A model generated the notes under the pieces. It had not been told where the DNA came from. It saw nothing but the letters and a program-made list of their open reading frames with translations, and did no database searches. This document shows positions 1,216 through 8,346 of a stretch of DNA of 23,663 nucleotides, in pieces. Origin of the DNA: a virus; the IMG/VR virus record IMGVR_UViG_3300010157_000255, positions 1-23,663 of that record. The stretch is one strand, 5' to 3'. A program made the position numbers and the translations under genes. Position 1 is the first letter of the stretch. Each line of letters begins with the position of its first letter.

Positions 1216-1980
1216 TCAAGCGTGTTGTGCATGGGCTTCAATCATGGCGTGGGCTTCATACAATTCGCCTCGCTTTGGCAGTTTATATTTCTGAGCCAAT
1301 CGCCTGATGTGCCTCTCGCTGAGACCCATCCATTTCGCCAAGGCTTCGGCATCGAGCCAAATCGCTTTCTTCCCACTCATCGCCACTGCCATGAGGCGAA
1401 GGGTTGTCCACTGCGTTTTGCACTTTCGGCATTGGAAGATGTCGAGTGGATCATCGGCGTTGATTTTCAACATAACCCCACAACTGCCATCTTCCATTTC
1501 AGCTGGGCAGGGGACTTTGCTGGTCTTCTCGACAAACGCCCTTGCCGCATTCATTCCTTGGGAATGAATCTCTCGCAATTCCTTGGCAAAGTCTGCAATC
1601 CATTCCTGCTGCCCTGACCACGCCAAATGCACTTGAGCAAAGCCGACTGCATCGCGAATTTCACTTTCCAGAGAATCCGGCTTTGCCACTAGCGCTGGCG
1701 GAGTCAAATGGCGTTCATCGCGGATGAGTTTCTCCCACTCATGCAAGAATCCCAGAATGTCGTGACCGGCGATGAAGGAAAGAGCTGCAACATTCAAGCC
1801 AATGGTTCGCTCGCTGCTTCGCCCGCCGTTTCCTGACTTGCCGGGAAGAAGTTCATCGTGAGCGCCGACCCAGAATTCAATGAGATCATCGAGATTGCGG
1901 TGAAGCCGAGATTGGCATCGTTGGCAGATTCCGGCAATGTTGGTTTCATAATTGCAAAGGGTGCAAATGGTCATTTCCAT
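1216..1980 (-). CDS. Zinc-finger and helix-turn-helix DNA-binding protein
   Basis: The 254-aa protein belongs by appearance to a common actinophage family annotated as HTH DNA-binding proteins. It starts with a zinc ribbon (CTLCNYE then CQRC, residues about 6-22) and continues with a helical middle containing a GGRSSERT stretch. A second metal site follows (CPAEMEDGSCG then CRKC), and the protein ends in a MerR/HTH_17-like segment, AKWMGLSERHIRRLAQKY. The start chosen is the ATG at 1980, which overlaps the previous stop as TGATG. The frame runs open upstream but would overlap the preceding gene heavily. It probably binds DNA. Its nearness to the CACAACGC inverted repeats makes them a possible target (inference). 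Confidence 0.8.
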   Translation of the reverse strand: MEMTICTLCNYETNIAGICQRCQSRLHRNLDDLIEFWVGAHDELLPGKSGNGGRSSERTIGLNVAALSFIAGHDILGFLHEWEKLIRDERHLTPPALVAKPDSLESEIRDAVGFAQVHLAWSGQQEWIADFAKELREIHSQGMNAARAFVEKTSKVPCPAEMEDGSCGVMLKINADDPLDIFQCRKCKTQWTTLRLMAVAMSGKKAIWLDAEALAKWMGLSERHIRRLAQKYKLPKRGELYEAHAMIEAHAQHA

Positions 1981-2306
1981 CAAAATCTCATTTCCTTGAT
2001 TGTCGGTTTGTCGAAAAGTGGGATTGGCTCGAAAATGGCGGGTGTCTGGCAATCGTGACTGGCAAGAACTTTGTTTTCCCCGACTTGGGCAATATGCCAC
2101 GCCGTTCTCTTGACGAGAATTGGCTCGGCTGTGCCAAGGGTCTGGAAGATGGTTCGACCTTCAATCCTCATCGCCAACTCCTCGGCAAAGTTGAGTGGAG
2201 TCGGCTCAACTCTTGTCTTCCAGCCATTGACATGGCATTCATAAATCCAACCCTTGCATCGGCGGCATTGGGTCAAAGTCAATGGCGAGGAAATGAATGA
2301 GGTCAT
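1980..2306 (-). CDS. Conserved actinophage protein with CRRC zinc knuckle
   Basis: A 108-aa protein of the type often found just before the HTH protein in actinophages. It has an N-terminal CRRCKGWIYEC cluster, a PTPLNFAEELAMRIEGRTIF central motif, and a C-terminal WHI...LASHDC segment, so Cys and His residues at both ends could share a zinc ion. The function is unknown. The ATG at 2306 has an AGGA Shine-Dalgarno about seven bases upstream. It is the first gene after the repeat-rich gap at 2307-2443, so its expression may be controlled there, and it overlaps the HTH gene by TGATG. Confidence 0.75.
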   Translation of the reverse strand: MTSFISSPLTLTQCRRCKGWIYECHVNGWKTRVEPTPLNFAEELAMRIEGRTIFQTLGTAEPILVKRTAWHIAQVGENKVLASHDCQTPAIFEPIPLFDKPTIKEMRF

Positions 2307-2331
2307 TTCATTGTCCTAGTCGGCATCCGTT

Positions 2332-2376
2332 GCGTTGTGCGTTGTGGTACTAAAGTACCCCACAACGCCACAACGC
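2332..2376. repeat. Inverted repeat 1 of CACAACGC unit
   Basis: The left arm GCGTTGTGCGTTGTGG (2332-2347) pairs with CCACAACGCCACAACGC (2360-2376), with one bulged C. The centre is TAC-TAAA-GTA. The right arm is part of a 17-nt sequence (2361-2377) repeated exactly at 2426-2442 in the second inverted repeat. It lies in the 137-nt gap between the primase-helicase and the zinc-knuckle gene. Confidence 0.85.
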
Positions 2377-2396
2377 CAAACTGAGCGTGATGGGCG

Positions 2397-2443
2397 AGGC
2401 GTTGTGGCGTTGTGCAACAACGATTCACAACGCCACAACGCCT
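2397..2443. repeat. Inverted repeat 2: 18-bp perfect stem of CACAACGC units
   Basis: GGCGTTGTGGCGTTGTG (2398-2414) and CACAACGCCACAACGCC (2426-2442) are perfect complements, and A2397/T2443 extends the stem to 18 bp around an 11-nt loop. Each arm holds two tandem ACAACGCC units. The stem abuts the stop codon of the primase-helicase gene. No U-tract follows on the minus strand, so a simple terminator is less likely than an origin iteron cluster, an operator, or an RNA-stability element. Confidence 0.88.
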
Positions 2444-4561
2444 TCACTTGGAACTCCCAAGATGCAAAACCATCGCTTCGACAAGGTTGAACTTGGTCTT
2501 TCCGGCACTGCTGACATGGAGCGAATAGCCTTTGGAGGTTCCATGATTCTCCAAAATGCCTTCCATGATCAGTTCATCAACCCTTGCCAAAAGGGTCTTG
2601 TCATCGCCTTCGACTCCCCTGATGACTCTGGATTTCGTGGCTCCGGCATTGGCATGGATGAAAGTGACAATTCCAGAATCTAGCTTCTCTGATTTCAGCG
2701 CCAAAGCCTCTTCTTCCATCATTGGAGGTGAAATGATGAATTCAATATGACTTGAGCGAGTCGAGTCAACTGTGACAATTGCTGCCTCTTGGGTTCTATC
2801 GCTCTTGCGATACATTCCGGCAATCTTACGAATCGCCCCTAGGCGGTCTTTGGTGACTCTGACAGTCAATGTGCCTGTTCTTCCCGGTGCTAGGACTTCA
2901 AGTGGCTCTATGAGGAAGGCAGCGCCGTCTATGGTTGCAAGTTTGGCTTGCCCTCCAATGGCAAATCTGCCTCGTGTTTCCTTGTCTTTGGTCACATGGT
3001 CAATTTGAACAACGCAAGCGCCCGATTGCTCAGCGATTGCCCTTGGAAAGAGTCTCATCCAACGGGTTATTGCATCATTGTCTTTTGTCTCCCCGCCCCA
3101 CATTGTCAAGGCTTCAGTCACGCCATCGATGATGACCAATTCAGCTGAACCGGGCTTGAGGATTCCTAGCCAATAAGGATCAGAATGGTCTCTGGCTGAA
3201 TCAGGTTTGATGTAGGTGAAATTCTGCAAGATTTCCGCTTGGGTCACTTGGAGCAGTTGAAGGCGGTTCACTAAGTCTGATGCCTCTGACTCAAAATCGA
3301 TGTAGATGACTTTGCGAAACATCTTGAGTTGCTGGGCAACGACTATTTGTGCCAGCCACGACTTTCCGGATTCGGATTCGCCATAGAAGCTGTGAACGCG
3401 CCCCGGATACAACAGCCCTTGGTCATCGCTTCGAAGGAACAGCGTTGCCTTGGGTTTGACATAAGAGCCGTCAAAGAATGGGGTCAAATCTACCGGCTTC
3501 CAACTTGATTCCTCTTCGCTGTCAGCGATGATTGGCGCAATCTTCATCAGTGGCTCAAGTGGCGTTGCAATGGCGCTAAGTGGATTCAGGGTGCTAGGTA
3601 AGGAAGAAGAACCAAAACCTTCTGACCTCAATTGCCTTGCAGCTGCCGAGTAGTCACCTTGATGATGGAGGTGCGTGTAAGCAGCGAATTTGGAATATGG
3701 CTTTTCTTGCTCGAAAGTTGTTGATGTTGTGAAAACATAAAGGTTGTCACCATCGTTTCGCCCTGTCGTTGCACTGATACCTTCAGACTTGCCCGGTCTG
3801 CGCCAATAGGTAACTCCCCCGGCAGTAAAGACCAAACTCCATCCAACAAGGATGTCGCGCCAATCGGCTTTTGCATTGTAGTCATCTCCCGGCTTGTCGA
3901 GGTTCTCTGATTTTGTTTGTAATGAATGAGCGATTGTTTCCTTCTCTGGCATTTCATCAAGTGCGTAGAAAATGTCATGCAGAGCTTCTCGTTCTTCGGC
4001 AGTGATTGTTGGAATTGTCGCTGGCGAGCCGGAGATGATTTCCCACGCTCGACCCGATGGATGCACTGATCCATGCGAAGGCGCGGTGATAATGAAGCCG
4101 CCAGTTCCTCGTGTTTCCACAAGAACTTCGGCGTTGCCATTCTCGCCGGGTCGCGATGCAATCTTGGTGTTGCCGGGAATTTCATCCATTCCTGTGACTC
4201 GATAGAGCCAGTGAATTCCACCAGATGGCGATTGCTCGACATAGCCGGAATTTATTTTCTCCCACAATTCACCCAAGCCTGATGCCTCGGCAATTTCCTT
4301 GGCGGTAATGTGCAATTTGCTGGCAACTGCCCTGCCTTCAACTTCAAGGCATTCAACATTGTTGAAACCAGTGACAATGCCAATTCCTTCATGACCATCT
4401 TTGAACCAGACAATCACTTCTTCCAGTGATGGTTGCCGGGTGCAATAAGTTTTCCATGATCCAACCGGAGATTTGCTTCCATTGGTGCTTGCTCTAATAA
4501 CTGAATATCCAGCAGCATGAAACTCGATTGCTGCCTTCAGCATTGGATTCATTTCAATCAT
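2444..4561 (-). CDS. Bifunctional primase-polymerase / RepA-like helicase
   Basis: The 705-aa replication protein has an N-terminal archaeo-eukaryotic Prim-Pol domain (about residues 5-200). It carries GIVTG, then LEVEG (E73-x-E75 in place of the usual D-x-D; an E-x-E variant is known in actinophage primases), SPSGGIHW (111-118) and a GTGGFIITAP loop. The middle links to a RecA-fold hexameric helicase domain (about 375-620) with Walker A GESESGKS (394-401), YIDFESE and Walker B LVIIDG (475-480), followed by QIDHVTKD. The C-terminus looks like a winged helix. It should prime and unwind phage DNA. The start is the ATG at 4561, overlapping the previous stop (ATGA) with AAGGGGG upstream. A TTG further upstream is less likely. 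Confidence 0.93.
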   Translation of the reverse strand: MIEMNPMLKAAIEFHAAGYSVIRASTNGSKSPVGSWKTYCTRQPSLEEVIVWFKDGHEGIGIVTGFNNVECLEVEGRAVASKLHITAKEIAEASGLGELWEKINSGYVEQSPSGGIHWLYRVTGMDEIPGNTKIASRPGENGNAEVLVETRGTGGFIITAPSHGSVHPSGRAWEIISGSPATIPTITAEEREALHDIFYALDEMPEKETIAHSLQTKSENLDKPGDDYNAKADWRDILVGWSLVFTAGGVTYWRRPGKSEGISATTGRNDGDNLYVFTTSTTFEQEKPYSKFAAYTHLHHQGDYSAAARQLRSEGFGSSSLPSTLNPLSAIATPLEPLMKIAPIIADSEEESSWKPVDLTPFFDGSYVKPKATLFLRSDDQGLLYPGRVHSFYGESESGKSWLAQIVVAQQLKMFRKVIYIDFESEASDLVNRLQLLQVTQAEILQNFTYIKPDSARDHSDPYWLGILKPGSAELVIIDGVTEALTMWGGETKDNDAITRWMRLFPRAIAEQSGACVVQIDHVTKDKETRGRFAIGGQAKLATIDGAAFLIEPLEVLAPGRTGTLTVRVTKDRLGAIRKIAGMYRKSDRTQEAAIVTVDSTRSSHIEFIISPPMMEEEALALKSEKLDSGIVTFIHANAGATKSRVIRGVEGDDKTLLARVDELIMEGILENHGTSKGYSLHVSSAGKTKFNLVEAMVLHLGSSK

Positions 4562-4737
4562 TTGACCAACCCCCTTGCAATTGCAGCGCAAACCATAACA
4601 ATTCGATTTGTGACAAGAAAAGCATCTGAGCCAATGTGTCGAGCTTCAGCCTTCATCTCAATTCCAGCCTTCTCAATGTCTTGAGCAATTTGCTCTCGAA
4701 TTTCTGCTTCAATCATTTTCTCAATGTCATCGCTCAT
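4558..4737 (-). CDS. Small helical protein (59 aa) upstream of the primase-helicase
   Basis: I do not recognise a family. The 59-aa product is amphipathic and charged in its first half (many Glu, Ile and Ala), and ends in a hydrophobic stretch IVMVCAAIARGLVK. It has a good Shine-Dalgarno (GGGGGAG three bases before the ATG) and overlaps genes at both ends by ATGA, so it sits inside a translationally coupled chain. A replication-complex accessory role is plausible from position only. Confidence 0.7.
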   Translation of the reverse strand: MSDDIEKMIEAEIREQIAQDIEKAGIEMKAEARHIGSDAFLVTNRIVMVCAAIARGLVK

Positions 4738-7519: not shown

Positions 7520-7954
7520 CTAGTAGTACGAGTGACGAAGCCAGAAGGCTTTGGCGGCGCAAGCGCCATCGCTTCCATAATGGCGGCTGATGTAGGCAAT
7601 CGATGCGACTACCTGAGCAATCGGATCAGCACTGTGCTTGAGTCCAATTGTTTTGTAAGTTGAATCCAACAATTGCCCAATCCCCTTTGCCGAAGAACTA
7701 GGATTCTTGGCGTTGGGATTGATGTGGCTTTCCTTGGTGAAAATCCACAAGAGGCAATTGGCTTGGCGCTTTGTCATAAGTTCATTGACGAAAGCCTCAA
7801 CCTTTTGCTGATTTGTTCCAACCATCGGAACTTGCACTGTGATGATTTTGATTGACTGAACATTGTGTCCAATCAATCCATTGGTGATGCTGATGACCAA
7901 GAGAAGAGCTGCGGTTGCAGCGCTCATCAAGACAAGTGAAACTGAACGACTCAT
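7520..7954 (-). CDS. Membrane-anchored lytic transglycosylase (SLT-like)
   Basis: The 144-aa protein starts with a hydrophobic segment (residues about 5-28) that could be a signal anchor. A lysozyme-like domain follows: FTKESHINP with catalytic Glu75, SSSAKGIGQLLDSTY (88-100) and YISRHYGS (121-128), ending in CAAKAFWLRHSYY. C67 and C132 could form a disulfide outside the membrane. The enzyme should cleave peptidoglycan glycan strands. It lies in the early block between WhiB and the recombination genes, far from the late lysis cassette, so its job may be local wall remodelling or superinfection control rather than final lysis. The ATG overlaps the WhiB stop (ATGA). Confidence 0.83.
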   Translation of the reverse strand: MSRSVSLVLMSAATAALLLVISITNGLIGHNVQSIKIITVQVPMVGTNQQKVEAFVNELMTKRQANCLLWIFTKESHINPNAKNPSSSAKGIGQLLDSTYKTIGLKHSADPIAQVVASIAYISRHYGSDGACAAKAFWLRHSYY

Positions 7955-8346
7955 TGAATAAGTCCTTTCCTTTTGGCTCTGTCAAGCGTTCTTTCGATGG
8001 AGTCCACTTGGATGTTCAAAATCCTTGCGACCTCCGGCTTGGTGTAGCCCTGTGATAGAAATTCCTCGATTTCCCTGAACCTTCTGGTTCCAACCTCCTT
8101 CTTTTTTTCGAAATAAACCCTTTGATCTGGAGTCATTCCTCCCCAGAAGCCATCTATCTCATGATTGTCAATTGCGAATGAAAGGCAAGCAGTTTTGTGA
8201 ATACAACTGCCGCAAAGTTCTTGAAGGCGCGGAAGGCGCTGGTCTAATTCTACCTGAGAGTTGGGAAAGAAGAAATCCAAGTCTGGTTCCTTGGCGCATT
8301 GCGCTTCTGGAAATGATGGAGTGTTGAGCAATGCCAGCAAAGTCAT
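7951..8346 (-). CDS. WhiB-family Fe-S regulator fused to a C-terminal HTH
   Basis: The first 75 residues are a WhiB (Wbl) domain: C17, C45, C48 and C54 for a [4Fe-4S] cluster and the GFWGG turn (66-70). WhiB proteins bind the primary sigma factor and modulate promoters. They occur only in Actinobacteria and their phages, which is the best host clue here. Unlike most Wbl proteins (about 80-100 aa), this one continues with a charged linker and a helix-turn-helix segment (about 92-128, EEFLSQGYTKPEVARILNI), which would give independent DNA binding. A role in redirecting host transcription is likely. Overlaps with both neighbours are ATGA. Confidence 0.93.
   Translation of the reverse strand: MTLLALLNTPSFPEAQCAKEPDLDFFFPNSQVELDQRLPRLQELCGSCIHKTACLSFAIDNHEIDGFWGGMTPDQRVYFEKKKEVGTRRFREIEEFLSQGYTKPEVARILNIQVDSIERTLDRAKRKGLIQ

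Follow-up and report, generated by a model that had tools for sequence, protein, structure and literature searches.

A probable iteron-array replication origin beside the PrimPol-helicase gene of an actinobacterial phage and its putative recognition by a C-terminal winged helix

What is the function of the palindromic repeats that adjoin a primase-helicase gene in the virus record analysed here? The window, i.e. the entire stretch of DNA under study, is a linear record of 23,663 bp, in which the helicase stop (2444) and the start of the next gene (2306), both on the minus strand, are separated by a 137-nt gap that is filled by the repeat element. An initial annotation had described these repeats as a double cruciform, and had offered two roles for them, either as an iteron origin or as the operator of the helix-turn-helix (HTH) gene that lies downstream. 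The gene on the upstream side (2444..4591, minus strand) encodes the proposed initiator, which combines a PrimPol domain (PF09250), a RecA-like helicase (PF13481; AAA_25) and a C-terminal winged helix; its true start is probably a later ATG, and the residue numbers used here are counted from the listed TTG, giving 715 residues. Downstream, and also on the minus strand, lie a gene whose 108-aa product carries a CxxC motif (phrog_10480; 1980..2306) and which is outside the origin module, and the HTH-like gene (phrog_1467; 1216..1980); neither tracks the repeat word described below. Elsewhere in the window, the phage gene at 438–974 falls in the HslV/proteasome-like peptidase family (phrog_1040), for which the Pfam proteasome match is weak, and the WhiB-like gene at 7951–8346, which has an HTH tail, points to an actinobacterial host.

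The element is built from the word CACAACGC, which occurs nine times in the window, where shuffles expect 0.94 copies. Eight of the nine lie within 2332–2441: 2332–2339 and 2339–2346 on the minus strand, 2361–2368 and 2369–2376 on the plus strand, 2399–2406 and 2407–2414 on the minus strand, and 2426–2433 and 2434–2441 on the plus strand. The exact 17-nt arm noted in the initial annotation, CACAACGCCACAACGCC, is indeed present at 2361–2377 and 2426–2442 on the plus strand, and there is also a third, inverted site at 2398–2414. Likewise, the 18-bp perfect stem was found as described: in hairpin H1 (2397..2443, minus strand), positions 2397–2414 pair with 2426–2443 with 100% complementarity around an 11-nt loop, each arm comprising two tandem words. 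Folding places a second hairpin, H2 (2332..2376, minus strand), next to it, with arms at 2332–2347 and 2360–2376, a single bulge and the apex GGTAC-TTTA-GTACC; the z-scores for folding are −7.2 (DNA) and −6.2 (RNA). Three perfect inverted pairs with 17-nt arms and a spacer of at most 60 nt are present in the window, compared with none in 200 dinucleotide shuffles. The two adjacent hairpins are thus reproduced by folding, but the segment 2361–2377 is also perfectly complementary to 2398–2414, and can pair either with this or with 2332–2347, so that the ‘two cruciforms’ are one of several foldings. Between the hairpins, the spacer carries the motif TGAGCGTGAT (2382..2391, plus strand), which has the opposite orientation in the clades that use GTTCC or GTACC; likewise, the spacer motif TGAGCGTG (window 2382–2391; L010, L014 and L076) points one way in the CACAACGC clade and the other way in the GTTCC/GTACC clades, and in L044, L047 and L049 this motif adjoins the downstream start codon. 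A DNA search of the region against annotated phages returned no match, and the exact 17-mer CACAACGCCACAACGCC, when searched in viral contigs, has matches outside the family too.

Helicase relatives were collected from IMG/VR (45–100% identity) and from bacterial genomes, and a similar word array follows the helicase stop in all of the ∼80 viral loci that are long enough to judge. The usual layout begins with three to five tandem words and an inverted one; past a spacer, two more tandem copies lead to a palindrome at the apex, and inverted copies follow. The word itself differs by clade: in the phages it is CACAACGC, CGTTTCCC, GTTCC, GTACC, CCCTTTCCCA, CCTCGTCCCA, ATCCTGC, GGTGGTG, CGTGCCG, CGTGC or CGTACC, and in actinobacterial genomes CTGCACC, CTGCGCC, CTACGCC, GGGAACT, AACCCGG, CTCGCCC, GCGTCCC, CCAGGGT and GGCCGCA are found, among others. 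The initial annotation had asked whether relatives with both flanking genes might lack the repeats; the relatives do have the repeats, in a different spelling. Within a given locus the word is rare elsewhere (for CACAACGC, eight copies inside the element versus zero to one outside), and in a blind scan the array gives the highest single 7-mer count of any 200-bp segment in 65 of 105 loci; in many of the remainder this count is insensitive, because the word is only 5–6 bp long. Of the 23 actinobacterial chromosomal loci, 19 carry five or more copies of a single 7-mer at the gene end, three (L114, L121 and L130) show no array there, and L112 has a weak one. Arthrobacter phages, which have a related PrimPol with a different C-terminus, have no array at that place. 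In L016 and L081 an extra gene separates the helicase from an intact element, and in the GC-rich loci L113, L115, L119, L129 and L131 the helicase ORF itself contains the element, at its 3′ end, arrangements that argue for a function at the DNA level. The inserted gene (L016:5855–6703, and its equivalent in L081) resembles, by eye, a PAPS-reductase family protein. In L046 (3363–3440), the word ACCCTTTCCC also occurs within the start of the downstream gene. Many relatives have a second TGAGCGTGA at a distance of ∼4–5 kb; it was set aside, having turned out to be coding (MCERDG).

The word and the C-terminus of the helicase change together. AlphaFold models predict a winged-helix domain at residues 626–693 (2513..2716, minus strand), comprising α1 (626–647), α2 (653–659), α3 (664–676) and wing strands at 680–682 and 691–693, with pLDDT values near 90; Foldseek relates it to the winged helices of MarR, TubR, AspA and F93 with a probability of 1.0, at E-values of only about 0.005–0.02. 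The predicted recognition helix, residues 664–676 (2564..2602, minus strand), holds residue 665, and it is this residue that emerges as the top helicase column for association with the word (AMI 0.72 over all words) from an alignment of 85 helicases, thinned to 43 with a core-identity cut-off of 95% applied within each word. When GTTCC is compared with GTACC, residue 665 is again at the top (AMI 0.80), being Asp in 13 of 13 GTACC and Glu in 12 of 13 GTTCC helicases, and 10 of the top 11 columns fall within residues 631–672; in nine other gene families, no column exceeds an AMI of 0.42, the value of the best one. The exceptions to this rule are L018 and L021 (GTTCC with Asp665) and L045 (GTACC with Glu665). 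Among helicases that share 90–96% core identity, the helices are 88% identical where the word is the same and 50% identical where the words differ. In the CACAACGC clade, the helix DDKTLLARxDxLI is kept in L006, L007 and L009, the C-termini of which are otherwise 34–50% identical to that of the window; L008 is no less similar overall, but has another word, and its helix reads KSTTVLTRIDELI.

Near-identical pairs of loci that have switched words (L044/L049, L094/L103, L013/L017 and L019/L015) lose identity in the element and in the final ∼300 nt of the helicase gene: for L044/L049, the DNA identity is 78–83% at the helicase end, 53% in the element and 90–94% in the next gene, and for L094/L103 it is back to 96–98% in the next gene. 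On a tree of the helicase core, from which the winged helix was left out, the word changes 18 times, eight of these being changes between GTTCC and GTACC. A strict phylogenetic test retains five independent GTTCC/GTACC pairs on well-supported branches, with residue 665 as expected in 4.5 of them on average; the corresponding sign test, over about five switches, gives p = 0.06–0.125. The array and the winged helix are best read as a single exchangeable specificity cassette, in which the winged helix would be the reader of the word.

Across 43 loci, 35 perfect DnaA boxes (TTATCCACA) lie between −300 and +500 of the helicase stop, compared with three in the other 358 kb, and 21 of the 43 relatives have such boxes clustered around the array; none of 1000 permuted 9-mers reaches 35 near the helicase stop. 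These boxes occupy about a dozen offsets, point either way and fall in different genes and reading frames, which coding constraint on its own does not explain. Neither the window nor its CACAACGC clade has a perfect box near the array. The same gene–array pair is also found on small plasmids: pKRAD02 from Kineococcus (12.9 kb) has nine copies of GGGAACC at the end of its rep gene, together with ParA and a resolvase and no further recognized replication gene, whereas p-XQ-29-C from Streptomyces (7.9 kb) has eight copies of CCTGCCC directly 3′ of an AAA_25 helicase and no other recognized Rep. Similar arrays are present in a 34-kb Streptomyces plasmid and in Microbacterium phage Hendrix. GC skew, a check that had been proposed for the origin, shows no change at the element in eight records; the detrended skew of pKRAD02 has its minimum ∼1.3 kb from the array, which lends weak support, and the minimum in p-XQ-29-C is not near the array. 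A search of 17 viral records, which are possibly fragments, revealed no DNA polymerase A, and use of the host polymerase is assumed on this basis.

In our judgement, the element at 2332–2443 is very probably an iteron-array replication origin of an actinobacterial phage, to which the C-terminal winged helix of its PrimPol-helicase would bind. Many copies of one short word lie beside the putative initiator gene, and the origin reading of the initial annotation draws separate support from the conservation of the layout with concerted turnover of the word, from the co-variation of the winged helix, from the clustering of DnaA boxes in relatives, and from the small plasmids that carry the same pair. 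Replication would then start at the element: the PrimPol-helicase would bind the array word via its winged helix, assemble on the array as a helicase, open or exploit the hairpin-forming DNA, presumably upon hairpin extrusion, and prime synthesis, with the replicative polymerase supplied by the host; in the relatives with flanking DnaA boxes, the host would probably also supply DnaA.

The hairpins show compensatory changes and might function as RNA, in which case the two hairpins of the helicase-operon transcript would act as an attenuator, an antiterminator or a processing site before the downstream gene. Across 40 distinct GTTCC/GTACC elements, the 29 pairs hold in 99.0% of cells, and 95 cells are changed on both sides, as against 33 after shuffling (0 of 500 shuffles reach 95) and at most four when the pairing is slid. 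The change of word accounts for part of this covariation, but not for that of the apical palindrome and the outer H2 stem, whose variation is independent of the word. Besides a few unpaired cells, the non-Watson–Crick exceptions on the gene strand are G-U/G-T and never A-C, hinting that the gene strand folds, either as single-stranded DNA or as RNA. Nevertheless, additional tandem words sit outside the stems, the word tracks a predicted DNA-binding helix, the element may lie inside an ORF or behind an inserted gene, and the DnaA boxes of relatives cluster around the array. Moreover, a search for terminators or promoters at the element found none, no terminator-like U-run was found, and no Rfam family matched at threshold, the sub-threshold hairpin matches being mostly to eukaryotic microRNA models. 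We regard a role as an RNA element as very unlikely.

A centromere-like site for partition or packaging, recognized by the winged helix but not serving as an origin, would fit both the presence of centromere-binding TubR and AspA among the Foldseek neighbours and the end of the contig ∼2.4 kb from the element, but it is very unlikely given that the predicted binding domain is fused to a primase-helicase, that pKRAD02 has a separate ParA system elsewhere, that the element is not at the contig ends, and that it is where the DnaA boxes of relatives cluster. The operator proposed in the initial annotation, acting on the HTH gene or its operon, is highly improbable. The inverted and tandem sites upstream of the gene speak for it, yet the word does not co-vary with the HTH protein: this protein is 76–79% identical between the window and L044/L047 despite their different words, none of its columns tracks the word, and in the word-switching near-isogenic pairs its gene is mostly 80–97% identical, compared with ∼50% for the array. 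In addition, no promoter-like site was found, and in some loci the element is inside the helicase ORF. Finally, a mobile or selfish hairpin repeat of the REP/MITE type, which the palindromic repeated words might recall, is scarcely credible for an element with one site per genome, always by the helicase gene, and with a word that is rare elsewhere in the loci.

As an iteron origin, the element has its closest precedent in the Sulfolobus plasmid pRN1, where a stem-loop of ∼100 nt, placed directly downstream of the gene for a PrimPol-helicase-winged helix protein (orf904), is essential for replication (PMC4234260; PMC3869888); stem-loops of this type are conserved in structure and divergent in sequence, and a similar one has been proposed for phage BIP-1 (PMC4234260). 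The window likewise has a PrimPol-helicase-winged helix gene directly upstream of its hairpins, and its family likewise keeps the hairpin structure while the sequence diverges. In contrast, the pRN1 helicase belongs to SF3, whereas that of the window is RecA-like AAA_25 (PF13481), and for pRN1 no tandem word array has been described and no specific binding detected, whereas the window has two hairpins composed of words that co-vary with the protein. In SaPI Rep and SCCmec Cch2, the C-terminal domain of the helicase is reported to recognize short iterons that immediately follow the gene or operon encoding it (PMC7581432). SaPI Rep and its ori share with the window the position of the origin directly downstream of the helicase gene; a similar reading of the word by the C-terminus would, judging by co-variation, take place in the window family. 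SaPI Rep is not fused to a PrimPol and belongs to a different helicase family. We know of no mapping of specificity residues across many words in the SaPI or SCCmec systems.

In the PLE satellites of Vibrio, the DNA-binding domain of the initiator RepA varies in step with the origin, the two being exchanged as one module, and origin swaps have proved the specificity (PMC8263062). DNA-binding domain and origin appear to be exchanged together in the window family too, although PLE has a RepA_N initiator, three ∼30-bp iterons and two replicon types, and the window family a primase-helicase, words of 5–10 bp and at least 12 kinds of word. Iteron plasmid origins combine iterons and DnaA boxes in one short region (PMC4980987). 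Their initiators are without a primase or helicase domain, unlike that of the window. Plasmid iterons are usually about 20 bp long. We found no description of this type of origin in actinophages in the open-licence literature; the elements of the window family unite traits of pRN1, SaPI and PLE around a RecA-like PrimPol-helicase, with a broad set of words and a candidate specificity residue in addition.

More tentatively, and with slightly less than even confidence, we suggest that these loci represent a large class of replicons, hitherto undescribed, in actinobacterial phages and plasmids, in which the winged helix and its 5–10-bp word would be re-programmable by both point change and cassette swap, forming a natural recognition code. 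The driver of word change may be co-infecting replicons that compete with one another, or attackers aimed at the origin, such as Odn. For most environmental phages the origin is unknown, since it does not show in the sequence; a rule as simple as a word array at the 3′ end of a PrimPol-helicase gene singles out a probable origin for roughly 100 phages, prophage-like loci and plasmids. The natural word–helix pairs are also a data set on how initiators change their DNA specificity and offer a direct test of origin exclusivity between co-infecting phages as the driver, and named plasmids, such as pKRAD02, make a laboratory test possible.

Some further observations concern the records themselves. 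In L044, L047 and L049, the helicase is 45% identical to that of the window and most neighbouring genes are 62–87% identical, a sign that the replication module has been replaced. Approximately 30 contigs (e.g. L021, L072, L075, L084 and L103) end 2.35–2.50 kb past the helicase stop, as does the window, at 2,443 nt, which suggests a fixed physical genome end; the start of the record holding L084 (G010) resembles an Illumina adapter. In the 35,299-bp record that holds L133 and L134 (G003), the first 50 bases are repeated near the other end, and this record may represent a complete genome.
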